Source of the DNA: Leminorella grimontii ATCC 33999 = DSM 5078
Lineage (GTDB): Bacteria; Pseudomonadota; Gammaproteobacteria; Enterobacterales; Enterobacteriaceae
NCBI RefSeq assembly: GCF_000439085.1
Contig: NZ_AUUA01000011.1
Span: forward strand, 1 to 64,000
Length of the DNA stretch: 64,000 nucleotides
Direction: 5' to 3'
Numbering within the stretch: the first letter of the stretch is position 1; each line of letters opens with the position of its first letter. The position numbers and the translations under genes are program-made. Under the pieces are notes generated by a model, which was not told the origin of the DNA, did not search any database, and saw only the letters and a program-made list of their open reading frames with translations. This document shows, in pieces, positions 16,544 through 31,307 of the stretch.

Positions 16544-19081
16544 TTAGAAATTATAGCGAATGCCCAGATTGCCCTGCATCGGTTCTTCCATCTTGCTGCC
16601 CTTTGCGTAGTTCACTTCGGCAAACACGGAAACCTCTTTATTAACCGTTGCGCTGACGCCTAAACCATACTTACCCATATCGCCGGAGAGATCGGTTTTA
16701 AAGGTATTCAAATCGTTAATCGTCGTACGGTTATCGTCAATATACTCATGAACCCAGGCGGCCTTCACGTACGGCGTTAACGTGCTATTGGCGCCGACGT
16801 TAAAAGTGCGCCCCAGATTCATACCAAGCTCGGTCGTAAAGGAGTCCTGATCGTCAATGCTGCCCCTCATTCCGTTGCTCAGTCTGACGTCTTTGCCTTC
16901 TACCTGAACGTAGGTCAGCTTGGCATAGGGTTCCGCCCAAACGCCGTAGGCAACGTCAACGTTGTAGCCTGACTCCAGCGAACCGCCGATCGCATTCTGG
17001 CTATAGTCGCCGCGGATGCCGTCGCCGTTGGTCGATACGGCTTTCACATCGTTGCTGAAGTGGTTGTACTTCAACACTCCGTCGACATACCAGCCGGTAT
17101 TGTCAAAGTAGGTGGCGTATGCGCCCACGCTGTAGCTGTCAATGTTACTGTTACCGCCCCGGTCGTGTTTGACCTTAGCCGTACCGTAGCTGGTAAAGCC
17201 GCCGAAGAACGCCCTGCCGTTTGCATAGTCAACGATACGATCGGCGCCAACCTCAAGGCCAGACTGTTCCAGCTTGAAGTTGGTGTGTCCGGTATTCAGG
17301 CGGTTTGTTCCATCGGTCAGCCTTACCCACGCGCCGGCGCTGCCTTCGTTTTGTTCCAACATGCCTTTTCTAAAGCGCAGGTTTTGCAGCTCGTTGTTAA
17401 AAATCAGCGTCGGAGCGACGGCCATCGACAGCACCGCATCGGTGCTCGGCGTCGTTTCCGGCCGCGTTACCGGCGGCGTGACTTCTCCCGGCCCAGGGTT
17501 AGGCGCTGAAGGATCGTCTTTTGTCGCGCTCAGATACCAGATCTCGCTGCCGGCCTCTTCGCGATGATTCAGGCTGTACATATAGGTACCACCGTCGACC
17601 GCGTTGATATTCGTCCCGCTCAGGCTCGCCAGCGTGAAGTTGGCGCCACGGCTCTCGTCGGTAATCAAGTCCAGGCTGCGCTGACCGGGCTGCGTGATTT
17701 CCGTTCCGGAATCGGCCACGGAAACCTTATGGCTCCCGCTGCCGCTGCTTACCGTCAGATAGTCACCGCGGCCATTCTCAATCGACGTATTGAATAAGAA
17801 GTGCAGATTTCCCGACAGGCTGTCAACCTGAAGACGGGAATAGATCGGTTCTCCCGTCACGCTATCAGCGCCGCTAATAAAGCGAACCTTACCGGAACCG
17901 CTAAGCGCGCCGACGCGGGCCGTATCCGTATCTGCCGCGTTAGCGATCGCCAGCAGCACGGCGTTTTCACCGTTTAAGGTAACGTCCTGCGCATAAGCGC
18001 CGCCGGTTCCCGCCGCGGACGTTAGCTGCAGTTGACCATTGTCATAAACCTGCGTGACGCCTTCCAAGCGAGCGCCTGCGGCCAGCCAGGATTTAGCGCT
18101 ATCGCGAACGGTGACGTTATCGGCAAACGAATTGCTGTAAATACTTTGAGTCGCGCTATCAAACAGCGCTACGTTGGACGCGCGGCCGCCCTGCTGAACC
18201 TTCTGGGCGCCGGTGCCGTAAATCTTGGTATCGTCAGAAACGCCAGCGACGGCGGACGGGTCGGAACCGCTGATATACAGATACTGAACGCCGCCGCTGT
18301 TGATTGTCGTAGCGTTGGCGATGCCGCCGTTGAAGACATACTGCAGGCCGCCGTTGTTGATAGCCGCGCCGTCAGACACGCCGTCGGAGGTTACGTACTG
18401 ATAGCCGCCTTCATTAACTATGGTGCCGTTCGCCAGCCCTTGCAGACGAACGTACTGGATACCGCCTGCGTTAACCGTTGTGCCAGAAGCGCTCCCCTCC
18501 TCCTGCACGTACTCATAGCCGCCCTGATTGACGACGGTTCCTTCACTTTTGCCGCCCAGATAAACATAAAGCTTACCGCCGCTGTTGACCTGATTGTTGA
18601 CAGACAGCCCCGGATCGTTCGCGTCTCCGGTATTAGAAACGTATACCGTCCCGCCGTTCAGGAAAGAGTCTTTGAGCGTACCGCCATCAAAAACGCGAAC
18701 CAGGCCTCCGTTGACGTTGATGTTTGTCCCCAGTGCGGGAACCGTCGCATCGTAGTCGCCCACCGCGATTCTGGCATCTTTGGTAATGTAGACTTCTGCG
18801 CCGGTATTCACCGTTGAGTCTCGCATAAAGCCGATAACGCTCAGCTTGCTTCCGCTAAGCATATTAAGATTGATGGCCTCACCGGCGTAGCCGTTTTCTC
18901 CACCGTAATTCCAGGCGCCGATTTCTAAGCAGCTGTCGCCGTCCAGATCGCCGGAAAACGTTACGTCACCACCGTAGGTAACATGGGGCCTGCTGCCGCA
19001 AAAAGTGTCCGCATAAGCTGACTGAGATAAAGAGAGCGCTGTAAACAGTGCAATAGAGGAAAGCGTGGTTTTTAGTTGCAT
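16544..19081 (-). CDS. AIDA-repeat self-associating autotransporter (type Va adhesin)
   Basis: 845 residues. A signal peptide (cleavage near AYA-D) is followed by a passenger of about 545 residues and a C-terminal autotransporter beta-barrel of about 270 residues ending IRYNF, the terminal aromatic being the Bam recognition signal. Passenger residues about 140-290 hold roughly seven repeats of about 19 residues of the form GGxQYVxxxGxAxxTTVN, as in AIDA-I, TibA and Ag43, which build a beta-helix and mediate cell-cell aggregation and adhesion. A proline-rich hinge (PSAPNPGPGEVTPPV) precedes the barrel. Two Cys lie near the passenger N terminus. No heptosyltransferase gene is adjacent. The gene is monocistronic. 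Confidence 0.9.
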   Translation of the reverse strand: MQLKTTLSSIALFTALSLSQSAYADTFCGSRPHVTYGGDVTFSGDLDGDSCLEIGAWNYGGENGYAGEAINLNMLSGSKLSVIGFMRDSTVNTGAEVYITKDARIAVGDYDATVPALGTNINVNGGLVRVFDGGTLKDSFLNGGTVYVSNTGDANDPGLSVNNQVNSGGKLYVYLGGKSEGTVVNQGGYEYVQEEGSASGTTVNAGGIQYVRLQGLANGTIVNEGGYQYVTSDGVSDGAAINNGGLQYVFNGGIANATTINSGGVQYLYISGSDPSAVAGVSDDTKIYGTGAQKVQQGGRASNVALFDSATQSIYSNSFADNVTVRDSAKSWLAAGARLEGVTQVYDNGQLQLTSAAGTGGAYAQDVTLNGENAVLLAIANAADTDTARVGALSGSGKVRFISGADSVTGEPIYSRLQVDSLSGNLHFLFNTSIENGRGDYLTVSSGSGSHKVSVADSGTEITQPGQRSLDLITDESRGANFTLASLSGTNINAVDGGTYMYSLNHREEAGSEIWYLSATKDDPSAPNPGPGEVTPPVTRPETTPSTDAVLSMAVAPTLIFNNELQNLRFRKGMLEQNEGSAGAWVRLTDGTNRLNTGHTNFKLEQSGLEVGADRIVDYANGRAFFGGFTSYGTAKVKHDRGGNSNIDSYSVGAYATYFDNTGWYVDGVLKYNHFSNDVKAVSTNGDGIRGDYSQNAIGGSLESGYNVDVAYGVWAEPYAKLTYVQVEGKDVRLSNGMRGSIDDQDSFTTELGMNLGRTFNVGANSTLTPYVKAAWVHEYIDDNRTTINDLNTFKTDLSGDMGKYGLGVSATVNKEVSVFAEVNYAKGSKMEEPMQGNLGIRYNF

Positions 19082-22004: not shown

Positions 22005-23141
22005 CTAGCGCTGAAGCTCCATGCCGATATACAGCCAAAACAGTTGTCTCAAATTATTGATCTTTATATTGGTTATATCCTCGATTCGCTGTAGGCGGTA
22101 GCGCAGCGTATTCACGTGGATATGCAAACCGGTGGCGGTTTGAGAAAGATCACAATTCTGCTCAAAATAGTGGCGCAGGGTGGTTTGCAAAACGCCCTTG
22201 GGATCCTGCTCGATCAGGCGCAGCCAAATTTTGGACAGCTCTTCCGCCTGCCAGGTGTCGGACAGCCCGCCAAGCAGCGAAGCCAGCGCATAGTCGTCAT
22301 AAAATACGTACTGATTTTTCAGCCGAAGCCTCTTAACCATCGCCTGCACGGCCCTAGCCGTTTGATAGGAGCGCCGAAGCCCCGCTTCGCCGGGGAAATA
22401 GCCGCCGACGATAATGCGAGAAAATCCGGAGGATTGCGCATAATGCTTAAACCGCTGAAGCTCGCTCAGCTCTTGCTGCGTATCCCACTCTCCCTGACGC
22501 AGGGTGATAGGCTTGAGAATAATCAGTTCGTTAAAGTCGGTGAAGGTCACCAGGTGATCGCGCGCGCTGTATTCAAAATAATCCATCAGGTTACGTAACG
22601 CATCGCGATCGGGCTGCTGCAGCTCAAGGATAAGAACGACTCTGGGCTGCAGCAGGTTGACGCCGAGATAAGACACCATCGCATCGAGAGACGCAGGACG
22701 GCTTTCCCTCAGTATCAGCTGATGGACAAGCTCTTCGCGGTAGCGTTTATCCCACTGCTTTTGCTCCAACAGCGCCGTTTGTTCGATAATGAGCTCCGAC
22801 GCCATTTTAACCAATTCGGCATAGGCCCTGACTTCGTCCGGCTCGCCGGTAATACCCAACACGCCGATTAGCCGATCGCGAAAGTTTATGGGCAGATTAA
22901 TGCCGGGCCTGACGCCCTTAAGCCGATTGGCCGTAGCGGAATCAATTTCCACTACGCGGTTTTCCGTCAGCGCCAGCACGGCCCCCTCATGGCGCTGGTG
23001 AATGCGAGAGGCTTCCCCTGAGGCGATAATCATTCCGAACTCGTCCATCACGTTAACGGAGTAGGGGATTATGCTCATCGTGCGCTGCACTATTTGACGG
23101 GCCGTCGTGTCTTTTAAATAGCTGGTCTGGGTAGTATTCAT
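22005..23141 (-). CDS. cdaR: Carbohydrate diacid regulator CdaR
   Basis: This transcriptional activator responds to D-glycerate in E. coli, where it switches on the galactarate/glucarate genes. The N-terminal putative sugar-diacid recognition domain covers about residues 5-140 (MDEFGMIIASGE, IHQRHEGA, INLPINFRDRLIGVLGITG). The C-terminal PucR-type helix-turn-helix is around residues 320-378 (LSQTATGLHIHVNTLRYRLQRIEDIT). The 378-residue length is close to that of E. coli CdaR. It is transcribed in the same direction as the permease and kinase, 118 bp upstream, so all three probably form one regulon. No galactarate or glucarate dehydratase genes lie in the window. Confidence 0.93.
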   Translation of the reverse strand: MNTTQTSYLKDTTARQIVQRTMSIIPYSVNVMDEFGMIIASGEASRIHQRHEGAVLALTENRVVEIDSATANRLKGVRPGINLPINFRDRLIGVLGITGEPDEVRAYAELVKMASELIIEQTALLEQKQWDKRYREELVHQLILRESRPASLDAMVSYLGVNLLQPRVVLILELQQPDRDALRNLMDYFEYSARDHLVTFTDFNELIILKPITLRQGEWDTQQELSELQRFKHYAQSSGFSRIIVGGYFPGEAGLRRSYQTARAVQAMVKRLRLKNQYVFYDDYALASLLGGLSDTWQAEELSKIWLRLIEQDPKGVLQTTLRHYFEQNCDLSQTATGLHIHVNTLRYRLQRIEDITNIKINNLRQLFWLYIGMELQR

Positions 23142-23559: not shown

Positions 23560-24966
23560 ATGAATTTTTTTTCGTTAGGCTTTGCTTACTGTTTTTTATT
23601 ATTTTTCTTATTGTACTGGTCCTTTCGCCCTTCAGTTTCTATACAAAATGGCCTGCTGTTGGGGGCGAGCTATCTGTTTATCGGCTCGTTTTCCCTTGGC
23701 TCAGCCGCTGTTCTGCTGATTTACAGCCTGCTGATTTACGGGCTGGCGCGATTTGCCCACCGAACGGAAAGTAAAAAAACCGGCTATATACTGCTGGCGC
23801 TGCTCGTATGCGCCTTTTTCGTCGTTTTCAAATACTACCCATTCTTTAGGGAAAGCCTCCAGCTACGCTTAAGCCAGCTCGGCCTACGGGGAAGCCTTCC
23901 CACGTTGGACATTCTGGTGCCCCTTGGGCTTTCTTTTTACGCCTTTCACTCCGTCAGCTACGTTGTGTCCGTCGCTAAAAAGGAAATAGAACCGGCGCGC
24001 TTTCCCGACCTGCTTCTCTATTTGAGCTTTTTTCCCAGCGTCGTCGCAGGGCCTATCAATCGGGCGATAGTTTTCCTACCGCAAATCCGCCCGCCCCATT
24101 TGCGCGAGCTTCGCTTCACCAATCGCGCAATTGGCCTGATAGCGTTGGCCATCGCCAAACTGTTTTTATGCAGCGCTTTTTTAGCGGAAAACTACGTCAA
24201 CGGCGTATTCGACGCGCCGGACGGCTACACGCCGCTGCAAATGCTGGCGGCGGTTTATGCCTACGCCTGGCAGATCTATTTTAATTTCTCCGGCTACACC
24301 AATCTGGTCACCGGCCTGGCGCTGCTGCTCGGTTTCTACGTTCCCAAAAACTTCGATGCGCCCTATGTGTCTCTTAATCTACAGGAATTCTGGAAACGCT
24401 GGCACATCAGCCTGTCGACCTTCATCCGCGACTATATCTATATTCCCTTAGGCGGCAATCGCCACGGCTTCATCCGTAAAAACGCCAACCTGATGGTGGC
24501 GATGGTGCTTTCCGGCATATGGCACGGTGCGGGCGTTAACTTCATTATCTGGGGCGCGCTTCACGGGCTTGGGCTGGTGCTGTTTAACTGCCGGAACAGG
24601 CTGTTTCCTTCCGCGCCTTCAGGCGTAGCGGTAAGCTTTCTGGCGCGCCTGCTAACGTTTCACTACGTTTGCTTTGCCTGGATATTCTTTAGAGCGAACG
24701 ATCTGGACACCGCAATGGCTATCGTTCGCGGCATATCGTCTCTTTCTTTGTCTTCGTTAACTTCCGGCGCGGGCGCAGGAGCGGTTTGGTCGTTCCTACT
24801 GTTTTTTATCGCCTACCCTCTGCTGGTTCGGTTCAAGACAAAGTTTTCAGCCGCCGTTAACGCGCTGCCCTGGTACGCCTATCCCGTACCGCTTGTTGTC
24901 TTTTTGACGTTGATTTTTATTTTTACCCCTGCGGGAATACCGGGATTTATTTATGCGAACTTCTGA
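23560..24966 (+). CDS. patA: MBOAT-family peptidoglycan O-acetyltransferase PatA
   Basis: This polytopic inner-membrane protein (468 residues, about 11 hydrophobic segments) is predicted to move acetyl groups from a cytoplasmic donor across the membrane for O-acetylation of MurNAc C6-OH. MBOAT hallmarks are FWKRWHISLSTFIRDYIYIPLGG (His282) and GIWHGAGVNF, with the invariant His322. ATG at 23560 is chosen; an in-frame TTG at 23548 is possible. AlgI (alginate) and DltB are related. The two SGNH genes that follow with overlaps, in the order patA-patB-ape1 known from Neisseria and some Enterobacterales, argue for peptidoglycan rather than alginate. No alginate genes are nearby. Confidence 0.85.
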   Translation: MNFFSLGFAYCFLLFFLLYWSFRPSVSIQNGLLLGASYLFIGSFSLGSAAVLLIYSLLIYGLARFAHRTESKKTGYILLALLVCAFFVVFKYYPFFRESLQLRLSQLGLRGSLPTLDILVPLGLSFYAFHSVSYVVSVAKKEIEPARFPDLLLYLSFFPSVVAGPINRAIVFLPQIRPPHLRELRFTNRAIGLIALAIAKLFLCSAFLAENYVNGVFDAPDGYTPLQMLAAVYAYAWQIYFNFSGYTNLVTGLALLLGFYVPKNFDAPYVSLNLQEFWKRWHISLSTFIRDYIYIPLGGNRHGFIRKNANLMVAMVLSGIWHGAGVNFIIWGALHGLGLVLFNCRNRLFPSAPSGVAVSFLARLLTFHYVCFAWIFFRANDLDTAMAIVRGISSLSLSSLTSGAGAGAVWSFLLFFIAYPLLVRFKTKFSAAVNALPWYAYPVPLVVFLTLIFIFTPAGIPGFIYANF

Positions 24967-26056
24967 CGGCAGCACAGCGCTGACAAGGATGTACCAGGTC
25001 GTCTATATTCTGCTGTTAAGCTCCCTGGGCCTGGTTTGGCTGAACCAGCGCTCGCTGTCTCTTTACTGGCAACAGGAGTTTCATCAGGAAAGCCCGTGGG
25101 CAACTTTTGACAATCCGCTATGGCTCGCCGGCGGGCGCTTTGTTCCCGCGCTGGAGGCCGGCAAGGAAGCCTTTGTCGCCTCATTGAACGCCGAGAGTGA
25201 AACCTCCGTAGAGTTCGCTCCAACGTTGGACGTATCGGCGCTGGCCCTGCCGCAGTGGGGGTGGAAGGGTGTCCACCGTCTGCCTCATTCCAGCGCGCAC
25301 CCCGGCGATCGCGCGCCGGAGGGTAGCACGCAGGAAGCCTCGTCTCGGACGCATTCCGACGCGGCTATCGTACTCTCGCCGCAAAGTAAGGTTCTCCTCG
25401 TTGGAGATTCCATGATGCAGGGCGTCGCCCCCCACATGATGAAGGCGCTGTCCAAAGACTACGGCATAAAAAGCATCAACCTGAGTAAACAAAGCACCGG
25501 CCTCTCCTATCCGGGCTTTTTCAACTGGCCTAAAACGATCGACGAAGCGCTGGAAAAAGATGAGAACGTCGATCTGCTGGTCGTCTTTCTCGGCCCTAAC
25601 GACCCTTGGGACATGCCGCCGTCAAAGGGCGCTCGCTTTCTCAAGTTCAAAAGCCCGGAATGGGAAGCGCTGTACCGCAGTCGGATCGAGACTATATTAG
25701 AAAGCGCCCAGCGTCACCACAGCCGCGTCATCTGGGTCGGGCCGCCAAATATGCGTAAACCTGCGCTGTCAGATGGAGTAAACTATCTGGACACGCTGTA
25801 TCGTGCCGAAGTGACCGCCGCCTCGCAGCTCTATATCTCCGTCAACGACGTGTTCGGCTATCAGGGCGCGGACTACTCTGACTATCTGGAGGAAAACGGC
25901 AAGAAGGTTAAGCTTCGCAGCGATGACGGCACCCACTTTACCCCTACGGGGCAAAGGCTGATTGCGCAGCGCATACTTTCCGCAATCAGCGTTACCGCGC
26001 CGGAAAATCCGGAAAGCCCAAAAGGCCCGGAGCACGTTGAAATGGCGCATAACTGA
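24953..26056 (+). CDS. patB: Peptidoglycan O-acetyltransferase PatB (SGNH/DUF459)
   Basis: This periplasmic SGNH-fold enzyme is anchored by an N-terminal signal-anchor at about residues 15-31. In Neisseria gonorrhoeae PatB takes acetyl from PatA and places it on MurNAc. Visible catalytic elements are the nucleophile Ser153 in GDSMMQG, Asn216 in LGPNDPWD, and Asp325/His328 in DDGTHFTP. The Ser-to-Asp spacing and the Asp-x-x-His pair fit the triad described for PatB. A variable Ser/Pro-rich linker (about 105-138) separates anchor and catalytic domain. It overlaps patA by 14 bp and touches ape1 by 1 bp (TGATG), so the three are translationally coupled. Confidence 0.85.
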   Translation: MRTSDGSTALTRMYQVVYILLLSSLGLVWLNQRSLSLYWQQEFHQESPWATFDNPLWLAGGRFVPALEAGKEAFVASLNAESETSVEFAPTLDVSALALPQWGWKGVHRLPHSSAHPGDRAPEGSTQEASSRTHSDAAIVLSPQSKVLLVGDSMMQGVAPHMMKALSKDYGIKSINLSKQSTGLSYPGFFNWPKTIDEALEKDENVDLLVVFLGPNDPWDMPPSKGARFLKFKSPEWEALYRSRIETILESAQRHHSRVIWVGPPNMRKPALSDGVNYLDTLYRAEVTAASQLYISVNDVFGYQGADYSDYLEENGKKVKLRSDDGTHFTPTGQRLIAQRILSAISVTAPENPESPKGPEHVEMAHN

Positions 26057-27273
26057 TGAAGAAAAACGCAATGAATGCACGACAATTAAAGATTTTTCTG
26101 CCCGTAGCCGGCCTTCTCTGCGCGCTTTCTCTGGTCTCTTGCCATACCACGAGAGAAGACGGCGCGCCGTTAGAGAAAAAGAGCGACGGCATCCACTATG
26201 GGCAGTTAACCAACTACGGCGAAAAGCGCATCGCAGGCTTCGCCAATCGGCTGACCCACGCACGCAGCCAGAGCGTACACATCGTTCAACTAGGCGACTC
26301 CCATACGGCGGCAGACTTCTTCAGCGGCCAGCTTAGATCGCGGCTACAGCAGCGCTTCGGCAACGGCGGCCCAGGATTCGTCAACCCGCTGTCCGTTCCC
26401 GGCCAGCGTCACGGCCTTGTCGGCTTTAGCCAGGAAAAAAAGGCCTGGAATTTTTATACCAGCCGTAAAGACGACCGCGCCGACTTTCCGCTCGGCGGTT
26501 TTATCGCCCAACCCAATGCGGACCAGGCTTCCGCAACAATAAGGCTCTTTAGTAAAGACGGCGCCCCCTATTTGGTCAGCGCGCTTTATCGCGCTTCAGG
26601 CGACGCCCGCCTCTCGCTCAATGGCCGCGCCTTATCGCTTGGCGATACCCAGGGCCAGTGGAAATTCTCGGCCCAAGAGCAGGTTACCTTCCCCGCTGAG
26701 ATCGCCGCTTCCCGCCAAAATAACCTGATGCTGGGAGGCTGGCTGATACAGCGCCCCGAGCACGGCGTCATGCTGACGCCGCTGGGAATCAACGGCGCCA
26801 CCCTGACCATGGTGGACAAATGGCAGCCCGGCTGGATGGATACGCTAATTTCCCTCAAGCCTGACATGGTGATTTTGGCCTACGGCACCAACGAAGCGTT
26901 TAACGACAGGCTGGATCCTGCGCAGTACCGCAACCAGCTAGAACAAAAGATCGCGGCAATACGCCAGGCGCTGCCGGACGCACCCATCCTGCTGGTGGGG
27001 CCATCGGACAGCATCAAAAACAAGAAAGGCGAAAGCTGTGCAGAGATGCAGCCGGCTCAGCTCAACGCGGTTGTCGCTATCCAAAAAGAGGTGTCCCAGT
27101 CGCAGCACACCCTGTTCTGGGACTGGCGAGCGTTTATGGGCGGCGAGTGCGCCATCCAACGCTGGGCTGACGCCGGCGACGCGCGGCCAGATCTGGTTCA
27201 CCTGTCGCAAAACGGCTATAAGAAAAGCGCAGACGCGCTGTTTGAACAGCTGATGGCCCTTATCGGGCGCTAA
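26056..27273 (+). CDS. ape1: O-acetylpeptidoglycan esterase Ape1, lipoprotein
   Basis: This is a predicted periplasmic esterase that removes O-acetyl groups from MurNAc so that lytic transglycosylases can act. A lipoprotein signal (LSLVSC, Cys29) is followed by an SGNH hydrolase domain split by an insertion. Ser82 is in GDSHTAAD, then about 130 residues of beta-rich insert (120-250), then Gly247, Asn279 in YGTNEA, and Asp379/His382 in DLVHLSQNGY. The insert and residue spacing match Ape1-type enzymes. The 405-residue length is typical. It ends at a bidirectional terminator shared with bax. Confidence 0.87.
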   Translation: MKKNAMNARQLKIFLPVAGLLCALSLVSCHTTREDGAPLEKKSDGIHYGQLTNYGEKRIAGFANRLTHARSQSVHIVQLGDSHTAADFFSGQLRSRLQQRFGNGGPGFVNPLSVPGQRHGLVGFSQEKKAWNFYTSRKDDRADFPLGGFIAQPNADQASATIRLFSKDGAPYLVSALYRASGDARLSLNGRALSLGDTQGQWKFSAQEQVTFPAEIAASRQNNLMLGGWLIQRPEHGVMLTPLGINGATLTMVDKWQPGWMDTLISLKPDMVILAYGTNEAFNDRLDPAQYRNQLEQKIAAIRQALPDAPILLVGPSDSIKNKKGESCAEMQPAQLNAVVAIQKEVSQSQHTLFWDWRAFMGGECAIQRWADAGDARPDLVHLSQNGYKKSADALFEQLMALIGR

Positions 27274-27284
27274 GCGAAGCGCAC

Positions 27285-27315
27285 AAAAAAGCCGGAGATT
27301 ATCTCCGGCTTTTTT
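27285..27315. terminator. Bidirectional terminator between ape1 and bax
   Basis: GCCGGAGA/TCTCCGGC (27291-27298, 27302-27309) with a 3-nt loop, flanked by six A on the left and six T on the right, serves both converging genes. Confidence 0.93.
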
Positions 27316-27334
27316 CTTTACTCATCTATATCAA

Positions 27335-28132
27335 TCAAAACTCGTCCCGAATGCTGGCGGTTTCAACGTCGTTTTGCGCCTGAATGATCAGATGCTCGTT
27401 GTTATCCAACACGCGCTGCAAAAACCGACTGTAGGATGCGCCTCTTTCAGAGTAGCGCCCCAGCTTGTTCACCAAATGATCGGCGGTCACCGTATCGCCC
27501 TGGCTTCTTAGCTCTGCCCGAGACTCACGCAGTTTGCCGTAGGCTCCGTGGCTATTCATATTCAGCATATAGGCGCGAACGGAATCATCGACCGTATCGT
27601 AGGCGGAATAGCCCTTTATGTTGCCGGGCTCGCCGCAGGTCTTACTTCCGCACCGCATGCCAAACAGGTTATTGTTAACCTGAGCAAGCTTAGAGGTTCC
27701 CCAGCCGGACTCCGCCGCCGCCTGCGCAACGACCAGGTGGGTCGGAAGCGTATCGACGCGTTTTAGCAACTCGGTCCACTTCACCTTTTCAGGATTAGAG
27801 GAACACTGCATCCGATAGTTTGAACAAATCTGCTGCAGACGGGCTATCTCTTTAGAGCTCCAGGCCTGCGACAGGCGTTTTCTCAACAGCCATTCCCTAT
27901 CCTGGCGAATGAGCGCGTTTTGTTTGTCTATAATAGGAACTACGGCGTTTAAAAAGGCCTTCTTCCGTTGAGTGCCCGAAGGGTATTTTCTCAAATCGGG
28001 TAGGCTTTCCAGCTTATCATTGAGAGAATACTCTTGATGATTCATCGTACCCGTTGAAGCCCAGGCGCTCGAGAATCCTATGCTCATAACGAGCACTGCC
28101 GATCCTATTATTTTAAAAACAAGTGAAGTCAT
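27335..28132 (-). CDS. bax: Bax-like glucosaminidase-domain protein
   Basis: This predicted exported peptidoglycan glucosaminidase has 265 residues, with a signal peptide ending near AWA-S. The glucosaminidase domain shows the catalytic Glu region QAAAESGWGTSKLAQVNNNLFGMRC and the GYSAYDTVDDSVRAYMLNMN motif. C-terminal YSERGASYSRFLQRVL is typical of Bax. Four Cys may form two disulfides. GGAGT precedes the start at a good distance. It faces the PatA/PatB/Ape1 operon, a sensible partner since O-acetylation controls glycan hydrolases, though a direct link is inference. Confidence 0.9.
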   Translation of the reverse strand: MTSLVFKIIGSAVLVMSIGFSSAWASTGTMNHQEYSLNDKLESLPDLRKYPSGTQRKKAFLNAVVPIIDKQNALIRQDREWLLRKRLSQAWSSKEIARLQQICSNYRMQCSSNPEKVKWTELLKRVDTLPTHLVVAQAAAESGWGTSKLAQVNNNLFGMRCGSKTCGEPGNIKGYSAYDTVDDSVRAYMLNMNSHGAYGKLRESRAELRSQGDTVTADHLVNKLGRYSERGASYSRFLQRVLDNNEHLIIQAQNDVETASIRDEF

Positions 28133-28447: not shown

Positions 28448-28945
28448 ATGGAAATTGAAGAACTATGGGGCCTTATCGCGCTGGGTAAAGACGCGCCGCG
28501 TGACTATACCGACTGGGCTGAGCATCGTATGGCGCAAGAAGAATCGGATACGCTGGTTATTCTGGCTTCGCTGGGCTTGGATAAAGAGCCGATAAGAGAA
28601 GATGTCGTTCACTATTTTCATCGATATCTTAACGAGCGCTTAATCACACAGCCGACAAAAGAAGAGAGCCTCTCGCGCTACGTTAATCATCTATGTCGGC
28701 AAACGATCGACAAGGCGCTCGATCCTGACTGCGCCGTTCTGTTGCTGGCTGACCTCCATCGAAATACGGGTTTTGAAGGCGGATGGGATAATCCGTGGTC
28801 CCAGCTCTCTTACGATTTGACGCTGCTGGATATGGGGGAGAAAGTTCGTTTCTTTCATCCTGAGCTAAAACAAAGCAACCGGAATGACTATATTATGTCT
28901 TTTGCTTCGTCTTATCTTTCCCTGCGAACAATTTCCGTATGTTAA
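28448..28945 (+). CDS. Hypothetical protein, first gene of the SDR/acyl-CoA synthetase operon
   Basis: I do not recognise this 165-residue protein. It has no signal peptide or membrane segment, is mildly acidic and looks mostly helical. Notable stretches are DWAEHRMAQEESDTLVILASLGL (about 22-44), VVHYFHRYLNERL, and a Cys-containing region LCRQTIDKALDPDCAVLLLADLHR. The last 7 bp overlap the start of the dehydrogenase gene, so it is translationally coupled to it. That coupling suggests a shared pathway, but no function can be stated. Confidence 0.75.
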   Translation: MEIEELWGLIALGKDAPRDYTDWAEHRMAQEESDTLVILASLGLDKEPIREDVVHYFHRYLNERLITQPTKEESLSRYVNHLCRQTIDKALDPDCAVLLLADLHRNTGFEGGWDNPWSQLSYDLTLLDMGEKVRFFHPELKQSNRNDYIMSFASSYLSLRTISVC

Positions 28946-29781
28946 ACAAACTCGCCTCACGCCTGCTGTTCCCCTGCCTCCCAGTGGATAAAAGCGCCCT
29001 TCGCCGTCGGCTTAAAAATAAAACTGTTCTTATTACCGGCGCCAGCTATGGCATCGGCGAAGCGCTGGCTTACGCACTGGCAGACCTTCCGGTACGGCTT
29101 ATTCTGGTCGCTCGCACGCAGGAAAAGCTACAGCAGATACAAAGCGACTTTACCGCGCGCAAAGCCGACTGCCAAACGTTCGCCGCCGACCTGTCGAAGC
29201 CCGACGAATGCCAAACGCTGGCAGAAGCGATCGACGCGCTGCCCTACCCCGTCGACATCTTCGTCAACAATGCCGGCAAGTCTATCCGTCGTCCCCTGAT
29301 GGCGTCGTTAGATCGCCTGCACGACGCCGAGCGGACGATGAGCCTGAACTACTTCGCTCCGGTGCGGCTATGCCTTCACCTTCTAAAGGGACACAGGCCA
29401 AGATTTACGCACATCGTCAACGTTTCGGCGGCGAACGTGCTTCTGGCGCCCACGCCCCACTGGGCGGCCTATCAGGCCTCAAAAACCGCGTTCGACCAGT
29501 GGCTGCGCTGCGGGGAACCTGAGCTTAGGGCAGGCGACGTGCGCGTAAGCTCCGTCTACTTTCCCCTCGTCGGCACCCGTATGATTGAACCAACCTACGC
29601 CAACAGATCCGTCCCGGTTTTGCCGGTTGAAAAAGCGGCCAACATTCTCTGTCGGGCGTTGCTTACGCAAAAAAGCGCCTTCAAACCCTGGTGGCTACCG
29701 CTGGGCCAGCTGTGTTCCGTCCTGTTTAATTCCCCGTGGCGGCGGGGATGGATCCGCTATCTAAAAGCGTCAACAAAATGA
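28939..29781 (+). CDS. Short-chain dehydrogenase/reductase (SDR)
   Basis: 280 residues. A classical SDR core starts near residue 28: the NAD(P)-binding TGASYGIGEA, DLS at the end of a later strand, NNAG, the catalytic Ser in VNVSAANVLL and the YQASK motif (Tyr-x-x-x-Lys). An N-terminal extension of about 27 residues, MLNKLASRLLFPCLP..., and a hydrophobic C-terminal tail (LPLGQLCSVLFNSPW) suggest peripheral membrane association and a lipid-like substrate. The Arg in LVARTQEK after the second strand would suit NADPH. It overlaps genes on both sides. Partnered with an acyl-CoA synthetase, a role in reducing an acyl or ketoacyl intermediate is plausible but inferred. Confidence 0.88.
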   Translation: MLNKLASRLLFPCLPVDKSALRRRLKNKTVLITGASYGIGEALAYALADLPVRLILVARTQEKLQQIQSDFTARKADCQTFAADLSKPDECQTLAEAIDALPYPVDIFVNNAGKSIRRPLMASLDRLHDAERTMSLNYFAPVRLCLHLLKGHRPRFTHIVNVSAANVLLAPTPHWAAYQASKTAFDQWLRCGEPELRAGDVRVSSVYFPLVGTRMIEPTYANRSVPVLPVEKAANILCRALLTQKSAFKPWWLPLGQLCSVLFNSPWRRGWIRYLKASTK

Positions 29782-31307
29782 ATAAACTGCAACTGCTAAG
29801 ACAAACGGGCGTTCTGTCCGCCAAAGGGCTGCTGGCGTTAATCAAGTCCATCATGGCCAACGGCATCAGCCTGACGGCGCTTCTTGGCTATGCCGCAGCA
29901 CGATACCCGGAACGCACTGCGGTTCACGATGACGATGAAGCGCTCACTTACGCCGAGCTTTACTCCCGCACGCGCCGCCTTGCCGCTGCGCTGAAGTATC
30001 GCCACGGCCTTGGGCCCGGCCAGAAGGTCGCACTGTGCTGCCGCAATCACAAAGGCCTGCTAACCGCCCTGTTTGCCTGCGCCTATACCGGGGCCGATCT
30101 CTTTCTTATCAATACCGAAATCGCACCGGAAAAGCTGGGCGCGCTGGCGGGCAAGCACGCCTTTAACCTGATGATTTACGACAGCGAGCTGAAACCGCTC
30201 ATCGCAGCCTGCGGCTATCGGGGAAATCAGCTTCCCGTTGACGACGCGCATTTCAACGCCTGCTCCTCTGTTCAAGGGGCTGATTCACTGCCTGCACGCG
30301 TAGCCTACGGGCCAGGAAGCATCACCGTATTGACCGGCGGCAGCACCGGCGCGTTTAAAAGCGCCTCACGTAAACCTTCTCTATCGGCATTTCTTAACCC
30401 GTTATTCACCCTGTTGGACAAGCTAAGGCTTAGCCAATACCGGAAGCTTTACATCGCAACGCCAATTTACCATGGCTTTGGCCTCGCGGCCCTGTGTCTG
30501 GCTACTCTGCTTGGCGCGACCGTTTACCTTAGCAAGCGCTTCGACGCCGAGCGGGCGTCAACGCTGATATCCCATCATCGGGTGGAAGTTATCGCGCTCG
30601 TCCCCTTAATGCTTAGCCGGATGCTCCAGCTGGATCCCGAACGTTTGACGCCCCTGCGCTGCATTATTTCGGGCGGCGCGCATCTCACGCCTGCGCTGGC
30701 CGAACAAGCCCAAACCCGACTGCCCGGCGGGCTGTTTAATCTGTATGGCACGTCCGAAGCGGGCGTCTGCACAATAGCAACGCCAAAAGAGCTCCATGAG
30801 TCTCCCGGCACCATCGGCCGCCCGATTGAAGGCCTCAATTTACGCCTGTTGAATTTACGCGGCGGGCAGCCGATAGCCGACGGCAGCGTCGTTGGTGAAA
30901 TCATCGTGCGCTGCGCCTGGTCGGCGCAGGGCGCTGACAGTGACGTCGCCACCGGCGATCTGGCCTACCGCGATAAAAATGGGAACTATTTTCTGTGTGG
31001 TCGAATTGACGACATGATCGTATCAGGCGGTGAGAACGTCTATCCCATCGAACTGGAAAACGTGCTGATAACGCACCCCGCCGTCAGGGAATGTCTGGTC
31101 GCCGGCGTTGAAGACGCTGAATTTGGTCAGCGCCTGAAGGCATGGGTGACGATTACCCCCGCCGAACGCATCGATAAGTTTGAACTGCTGTCGTGGCTTA
31201 AGCCCCGCGTGGCCCGCTACGCTATGCCGGTAGACGTCGTTTTAGTAGAAGAAATTCCGCTCACCGCCGTCGGTAAGCCGGACGTCCGACGCCTATTGCA
31301 ACAATAG
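29778..31307 (+). CDS. Acyl-CoA synthetase / AMP-dependent ligase
   Basis: 509 residues of the ANL superfamily, which activates a carboxylic acid with ATP and transfers it to CoA. The start at 29778 gives ATGA overlap with the SDR stop. The P-loop motif reads TGGSTGAFKSASRK, less canonical than TSGTTGxPK. A5 is YGTSEAG; A7/A8 are TGDLAYRDKNGNYFLCGRIDDMIVSGGENVYP; and the C-terminal catalytic Lys is in PLTAVGKPD. The N terminus resembles long-chain fatty-acid ligases. No fatty-acid oxidation genes are adjacent. Substrate unknown, and a hairpin without a T run follows near 31336-31366. Confidence 0.87.
   Translation: MNKLQLLRQTGVLSAKGLLALIKSIMANGISLTALLGYAAARYPERTAVHDDDEALTYAELYSRTRRLAAALKYRHGLGPGQKVALCCRNHKGLLTALFACAYTGADLFLINTEIAPEKLGALAGKHAFNLMIYDSELKPLIAACGYRGNQLPVDDAHFNACSSVQGADSLPARVAYGPGSITVLTGGSTGAFKSASRKPSLSAFLNPLFTLLDKLRLSQYRKLYIATPIYHGFGLAALCLATLLGATVYLSKRFDAERASTLISHHRVEVIALVPLMLSRMLQLDPERLTPLRCIISGGAHLTPALAEQAQTRLPGGLFNLYGTSEAGVCTIATPKELHESPGTIGRPIEGLNLRLLNLRGGQPIADGSVVGEIIVRCAWSAQGADSDVATGDLAYRDKNGNYFLCGRIDDMIVSGGENVYPIELENVLITHPAVRECLVAGVEDAEFGQRLKAWVTITPAERIDKFELLSWLKPRVARYAMPVDVVLVEEIPLTAVGKPDVRRLLQQ

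Follow-up and report, generated by a model that had tools for sequence, protein, structure and literature searches.

What chemistry do the three overlapping genes of this locus carry out, and does the bax gene that faces them belong with them? The locus (Table 1) lies in the window, by which we mean the whole analyzed stretch of 64,000 nt from contig NZ_AUUA01000011.1 of Leminorella grimontii ATCC 33999 = DSM 5078, a genome of 4.22 Mb in 37 contigs. By their overlaps of 14 bases (patA/patB, 24953-24966) and one base (patB/ape1, 26056), patA, patB and ape1 are one operon, and very probably this is a PatA/PatB/Ape1 peptidoglycan O-acetylation (OAP) operon, a grading that concerns the operon and not a role for Bax. 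Systems of this type, including examples from the same order, are already known. The pattern of bax as a neighbour of such operons is real; in a search by titles and abstract beginnings, confined to the open-licence literature, we found no earlier description of it and no paper joining bacterial Bax with O-acetylation, and an earlier description may exist elsewhere.

The second gene carries much of the identification. PatB matches DUF459 with 231.8 bits (cut-off 27.2), the single such match in the genome, and its structural matches are PDB 7tjb (E 2.8e-60), 7trr (about 3e-60) and 8tlb (E 5.6e-45), of which 7tjb and 8tlb are titled PatB. By alignment it is 40.9% identical to Neisseria gonorrhoeae PatB, with S153, D325 and H328 aligned to S133, D302 and H305 of that protein. 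Besides this SGNH triad, the block III residue N216 (oxyanion hole) and a non-glycine block II residue, S181, are present, and at the position of the hydrophobic wall residue L250 of the N. gonorrhoeae protein the window's PatB keeps a leucine, L272. The PatB-type block II serine and the hydrophobic wall residue have been tied to transferases, and PatB is able to use an acetyl-tyrosine hexapeptide to acetylate a peptidoglycan mimetic (PMC12148441). Judged from its N-terminus, the protein is predicted to be membrane-anchored.

The third gene product matches Pfam Ape1_N with 57.4 bits (cut-off 27) over an insert at residues 104-207, between the serine block and the remainder of the SGNH domain, which is also over its cut-off; thus both the inserted domain and the SGNH triad are present. 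The structure matches are PDB 4k3u (E 1.5e-57; titled GDSL-like lipase), which we take to be Neisseria meningitidis Ape1, and 8gld (E 2.4e-26). The blocks GDSH, GINGA, YGTNEAFN and DxVHxS align with 4k3u, and tblastn picks out the third gene of the N. gonorrhoeae locus as its counterpart, at 32.7% identity across 419 columns. An LVSC lipobox suggests that Ape1 is a lipoprotein.

PatA, the only MBOAT match in the genome (87.7 bits against a Pfam cut-off of 27; E 4e-26 to DltB structures), shares 44.6% of 451 aligned residues with N. gonorrhoeae PatA, and its H282 and H322 align with H295 and H335. Its last seven residues, GFIYANF, are the same as those of the N. gonorrhoeae protein and contain the motif FXYXXF with Y465 as the tyrosine. 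PatA of Campylobacter jejuni acetylates the tyrosine of this C-terminal motif (PMC12148441). The motif is found in 88 of 89 PatA rows, the exception being a locus of Pseudomonas aegrilactucae (L050) where patA matches in two pieces and the open reading frame (ORF) lacks the FXYXXF end; it reads as a broken gene in that record. A first-pass annotation, made from the window's letters, had listed catalytic residues for all three proteins (PatA H282 and H322; PatB S153, D325 and H328; Ape1 S82, G247, N279, D379 and H382) and an insert in Ape1; all of these residues are in place by alignment, and the insert is the Ape1_N domain.

Three results speak against equating these genes with the known system. 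The NCBIfam PatB model NF045704 scores 299.2 bits over residues 16-354, nearly the full model, and this is below its cut-off of 580, which weakens the case that the protein is equivalent to the PatB so modelled; the cut-off may be a narrow one. Among NCBIfam models, none naming PatA or Ape1 matched here. The second hydrophobic wall position, Ile304 in N. gonorrhoeae PatB, is occupied by Thr327. Across 89 rows this position is Ile in 75, Val in 3 and Thr in 11, with six genomes behind the Thr rows (those of the window and its congener, two of Budvicia, one of Enterobacter, and G486); the 89-row PatA and PatB sets contain repeated genomes, and the PatB set has three rows from the window.

Could the MBOAT and SGNH genes instead acetylate another envelope polymer, of the alginate, cellulose or teichoic acid type? 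MBOAT-SGNH pairs do serve several polymers (PMC12148441), and the sole NCBIfam match of PatA is DltB, with 163 bits. That score is far under the cut-off of 375, and a DltB reading of PatA was dropped. The first-pass annotation had suggested a profile search in which best matches to exopolysaccharide acetylation proteins would count against it; the search gave solved PatB structures for PatB and Ape1_N for Ape1, while the ALGX model reached 18.4 bits with a cut-off of 26.5, so the AlgX-AlgJ reading was also dropped, in a comparison that left out AlgI itself. The strength of the PatB and 4k3u matches and the Ape1_N insert argue against another polymer as well, and no polysaccharide synthesis gene is found among the nearby genes by best match (glycerate kinase, GntP-like permease, CdaR-like regulator, short-chain dehydrogenase/reductase, acyl-CoA ligase, aconitase and one unnamed ORF). 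We regard acetylation of a different polymer as very improbable.

The reaction steps of an OAP operon can be carried over from Neisseria and Campylobacter; the gene identities and active sites themselves rest on sequence. At the periplasmic face, PatA would charge Tyr465 near its own C-terminus with acetyl groups drawn from cytoplasmic acetyl-CoA. The neighbouring, anchored PatB would hand the acetyl group on via Ser153 to the C-6 hydroxyl of N-acetylmuramic acid in the sacculus, and Ape1 would remove it where lytic transglycosylases must act. By analogy with studied relatives, the operon would confer lysozyme resistance. O-acetylation blocks lysozyme and also the cell's own lytic transglycosylases (PMC6174289), and acetylating bacteria therefore need a way to keep remodelling the wall. 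Ape1 is the known answer to this need, and another could come from a linked glucosaminidase. Bax, if it has that activity, may cut the bond left unprotected by C-6 acetylation and so help to turn over acetylated wall.

The best studied relative, the N. gonorrhoeae OAP cluster, shares with the window the order patA-patB-ape1, the 14-base overlap of patA and patB, the active-site residues of PatA and PatB and the GFIYANF end. It differs in the Ile304 of its PatB and in having no bax match in a locus of 12.9 kb. In OatA of Gram-positive bacteria, as in PatA/PatB, a tyrosine-carried acetyl group is passed to an SGNH domain (PMC12148441). OatA is not a member of the family; unlike PatA and PatB, it has an AT3 membrane domain fused to the SGNH domain, and it is not known to be paired with an Ape (PMC6174289).

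The first-pass annotation held that most model Enterobacterales lack this system and that Proteus and Providencia have it, and this agrees with our counts. In an even sample of 295 genomes of the window's family, PatB (E <= 1e-20) occurs in 23, representing 11 of 154 genera. Neither DUF459 nor MBOAT has a match in the E. coli control genome, and 20,395 E. coli records searched at the DNA level yielded no match, which is weak evidence at this divergence; Proteus and Providencia loci were found. OAP clusters have been tabulated for Photorhabdus, Xenorhabdus, Proteus, Providencia, Morganella, Citrobacter youngae, Cronobacter sakazakii and Dickeya, a cluster table in which Budvicia and Leminorella do not appear (PMC6174289). 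In Photorhabdus luminescens, acetate amounts to 65.6% relative to muramic acid, and OAP cluster neighbours are named for Campylobacter, Bacteroides and Zymomonas, the last being a cell wall hydrolase; bax is not named in the main text of that paper (PMC1199599).

Some pat operons lie on plasmids or beside other systems. A 159 kb IncFIB/IncFII Citrobacter plasmid (L106, L124; NZ_CP134684) carries patA-patB-ape1 followed by two hypothetical genes, DUF2138, DUF1175, alpha-2-macroglobulin, DUF2300 and DUF2135, and a C. youngae record (L052) has the same cassette start up to DUF1175. A patA-patB-ape1 set about 37% identical is found on a 199.6 kb plasmid of Acinetobacter junii (L107, CP077416), and in an Enterobacter asburiae contig (L043) a single small ORF separates the pat operon from a VgrG-like type VI secretion gene.

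When the patA/patB overlap was analyzed we observed that the start codon of patB is nested in the codon of the predicted acetyl-carrying tyrosine. In all 83 of the 83 loci chosen for a GFI-type PatA end, this codon is TAT and forms, with the next base, an ATG in frame with patB (24952-24957 in the window). Known repeats were excluded from this set and all 83 proteins differ; with L050, which was left out, the count is 83 of 84, and the loci are related by descent and so are not 83 independent events. Among the other tyrosine codons of the same patA genes, TAT accounts for 1278 of 2069. N. gonorrhoeae has the same nesting, which the protein sequence at the PatA end of C. jejuni, FIYSSF, makes impossible. 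The nested start may help to explain the alanine that follows the acetyl-carrying tyrosine in PatA of these bacteria.

We then turn to Bax. The protein matches the NCBIfam model for protein bax with 319 bits (cut-off 193) and Pfam Glucosaminidase with 57.6 bits (cut-off 30.2), and E141 aligns with FlgJ and is invariant in 19 of 19 aligned sequences. A signal peptide read from the sequence predicts export. The AlphaFold model has a mean predicted local distance difference test score of 71.2; its best Foldseek match is a type VI effector complex (4kt3), followed by autolysin Auto and LytB, all weak and none at E <= 0.001.

The gene neighbourhood survey suggested by the first-pass annotation shows recurrent, though not universal, adjacency of bax and pat. 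It covered the best 80 of 185 loci by PatB, a set biased to near relatives and overlapping with the 295-genome sample. bax is present in 52 of these loci, namely 51 of 51 from Morganellaceae and one metagenome-assembled genome (MAG). In all 51, from six genera (Photorhabdus, Xenorhabdus, Providencia, Proteus, Morganella and Moellerella), bax lies upstream of patA with no gene of 150 amino acids or more between them; it shares the strand of patA and is 57 to 739 bases away, judged by called ORF starts. The same four genes thus stand together as in the window, with identities to the window's proteins of 41-46% for PatB, 52-57% for PatA, 45-54% for Ape1 and 50-57% for Bax; the Morganellaceae bax is upstream and codirectional, whereas in the window and its congener G379 it is downstream and convergent. 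In the 295 genomes, bax occurs in 21 of the 23 with PatB compared with 112 of 295 overall (Fisher p 4.9e-8 by genome and 8e-5 by genus, uncorrected for kinship). It is adjacent to pat in 15 of the 21: upstream and codirectional in 13, downstream and convergent in two (window and G379).

One explanation is that bax encodes a dedicated fourth partner, a glucosaminidase that still cuts the acetylated wall on which lysozyme and lytic transglycosylases are blocked. In its favor, the adjacency is constant in the 51 Morganellaceae loci, and the genes on both outer sides differ from genus to genus and also within a genus: the gene before bax belongs to one family in Photorhabdus and Morganella, to another in most Providencia and Proteus, to several in Xenorhabdus and to yet another in Moellerella, and the gene after ape1 likewise varies. 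The second, convergent arrangement in the window's genus and the GH73 domain with its conserved E141 point the same way. A set of observations pulls in the other direction. bax is common without pat (91 of the 112 bax genomes), and none of the remaining 28 loci among the best 80 has bax nearby (22 Pseudomonas, two Budvicia, one each of Citrobacter, Enterobacter and Superficieibacter, and an unnamed gammaproteobacterium), although in both Budvicia loci the contig ends less than 280 bases from ape1. Among the 23 PatB genomes, bax is not adjacent to pat in G293, G415 and G490 (g135), G486 (g12) and G412 (B. aquatica), and it is absent from G440 and G510 (g176); the N. gonorrhoeae locus, as said, has no bax match. 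A strict scan also placed a terminator in the bax-patA interval at 27 of the 51 Morganellaceae loci, against 0 of 1020 shuffles (Providencia 10/11, Proteus 6/6, Xenorhabdus 8/18, Photorhabdus 2/11, Moellerella 1/1, Morganella 0/4). Its G-C demand was set low enough to admit the AT-rich stems visible in the sequences. Since the linkage is not universal and terminators separate the two genes at these 27 loci, we class bax as linked to the operon and not as part of it; at loci with no detected terminator, bax may be co-transcribed with patA. A dedicated partnership remains a serious proposition, at somewhat less than even chances.

The proximity may instead be an inherited neighbourhood without function: bax and pat would have met once in an ancestor of Morganellaceae and Budviciaceae, followed by inversion of pat in place and by some losses. 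Inverting the three-gene operon alone converts one gene order into the other, and an explanation by two independent origins of the arrangements was dropped as a single inversion suffices. In a midpoint-rooted bax tree, the window, G379, G297, G369 and Budvicia group apart from Morganellaceae, so that the tree follows families, and the Morganellaceae pat operons are one clade. Terminators between bax and patA fit this history too. In G297 and G369, which fall outside the 23 PatB genomes, bax lies close to relatives of the genes flanking the window's operon upstream, as simple loss or gain would give; pat was thus probably gained or lost between the flank block and bax. The constancy of bax-patA amid changing outer flanks in Morganellaceae argues against mere inheritance, a history to which we give very nearly an even chance. 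That Bax works in Morganellaceae and the window's genus as a fourth OAP member, tolerant of acetyl groups and allowing growth even as acetylation protects the wall from lysozyme and lytic transglycosylases, we propose only tentatively and with more doubt than belief; if true, a little-studied gene gains a role. Of the modification and turnover module suggested in the first-pass annotation, the recurrent linkage thus stands and the joint function is not proven.

The tree of the three pat proteins places the window and G379 with Superficieibacter and then Budvicia, and Morganellaceae with the MAG in a clade of their own; the order of its deeper clades is only tentative. It is a quick tree of 43 rows (patA 41, patB 39, ape1 39), three of them less than half filled, with Shimodaira-Hasegawa-like approximate likelihood ratio (SH-aLRT) support only and a long-branch warning, and its N. 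gonorrhoeae row lacks Ape1. After the congener, Budvicia and Superficieibacter thus hold the closest pat relatives of the window; unlike in the window, bax was not found beside them. In the Superficieibacter-type genomes (g135), bax is distant from the window's group and placed with G486, while pat is near the window's, which suggests that they acquired pat from a source resembling Budviciaceae. Budvicia diplopodorum (G283), with ape1 at one contig end and bax at the end of another, was considered as a further convergent case and set aside because the genes upstream of its bax match those of G412, where bax lies mid-contig and on a different contig from pat. G476 (L114, genus g11) keeps bax and the small upstream ORF family and is not PatB-positive; pat seems lost there.

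Two wider searches were of limited use. An order-wide bax search matched 129 of 247 genomes, only nine over the cut-off and mixed with distant GH73 proteins, and was replaced by the family-genome count; a phylum-wide PatB search found 5 of 398 genomes, too sparse for the bax question outside the order. The ORF caller keeps the longer ORF, and in some Pseudomonas loci patB or ape1 is replaced by an ORF of the opposite strand.

Table 1. Coordinates of the pat operon, bax and associated elements in the window.
Feature	Position	Strand	Description
patA	23560..24966	+	MBOAT O-acyltransferase, 468 aa; H282, H322; ends GFIYANF
FXYXXF codons (F463-I-Y465-A-N-F468)	24946..24963	+	Y465, predicted acetyl carrier
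patB start codon	24953..24955	+	last two bases of Y465 codon and first base of A466 codon
patB	24953..26056	+	predicted SGNH/DUF459 peptidoglycan O-acetyltransferase, 367 aa; S153, S181, N216, L272, D325, H328
ape1	26056..27273	+	predicted lipoprotein SGNH O-acetylpeptidoglycan esterase, 405 aa; Ape1_N insert 104-207
Intrinsic terminator, bidirectional, common to ape1 and bax	27285..27315	both	inverted repeat
bax	27335..28132	-	predicted exported GH73-type glucosaminidase, 265 aa; predicted catalytic E141

The overlapping genes and the convergent bax with a common terminator are as the first-pass annotation had described them. The terminator lies in the 61-base gap between ape1 and bax. Its stem has 14 pairs and its loop 3 bases, and the outer pairs join an A-run to a T-run, so the stem-loop is able to serve both strands; the folding energy of 27270-27340 is -22 kcal/mol (z -6.17), equalled by 0 of 200 shuffles. 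Upstream of the operon and divergent from it come first a CdaR-like regulator at 22005-23141, whose 302 bits are under the cut-off of 612, then a GntP-like permease, also under its cut-off, and last a glycerate kinase that exceeds its own. Between bax and aconitase, 28448-31307 holds the unnamed ORF of 165 amino acids, the short-chain dehydrogenase/reductase and the acyl-CoA ligase; this segment is missing in G379 (L117), where the next ORFs listed past bax are aconitase in two overlapping pieces. At 16544-19081 the window also carries a BafA-family autotransporter by NCBIfam, with 702 bits against a cut-off of 700.

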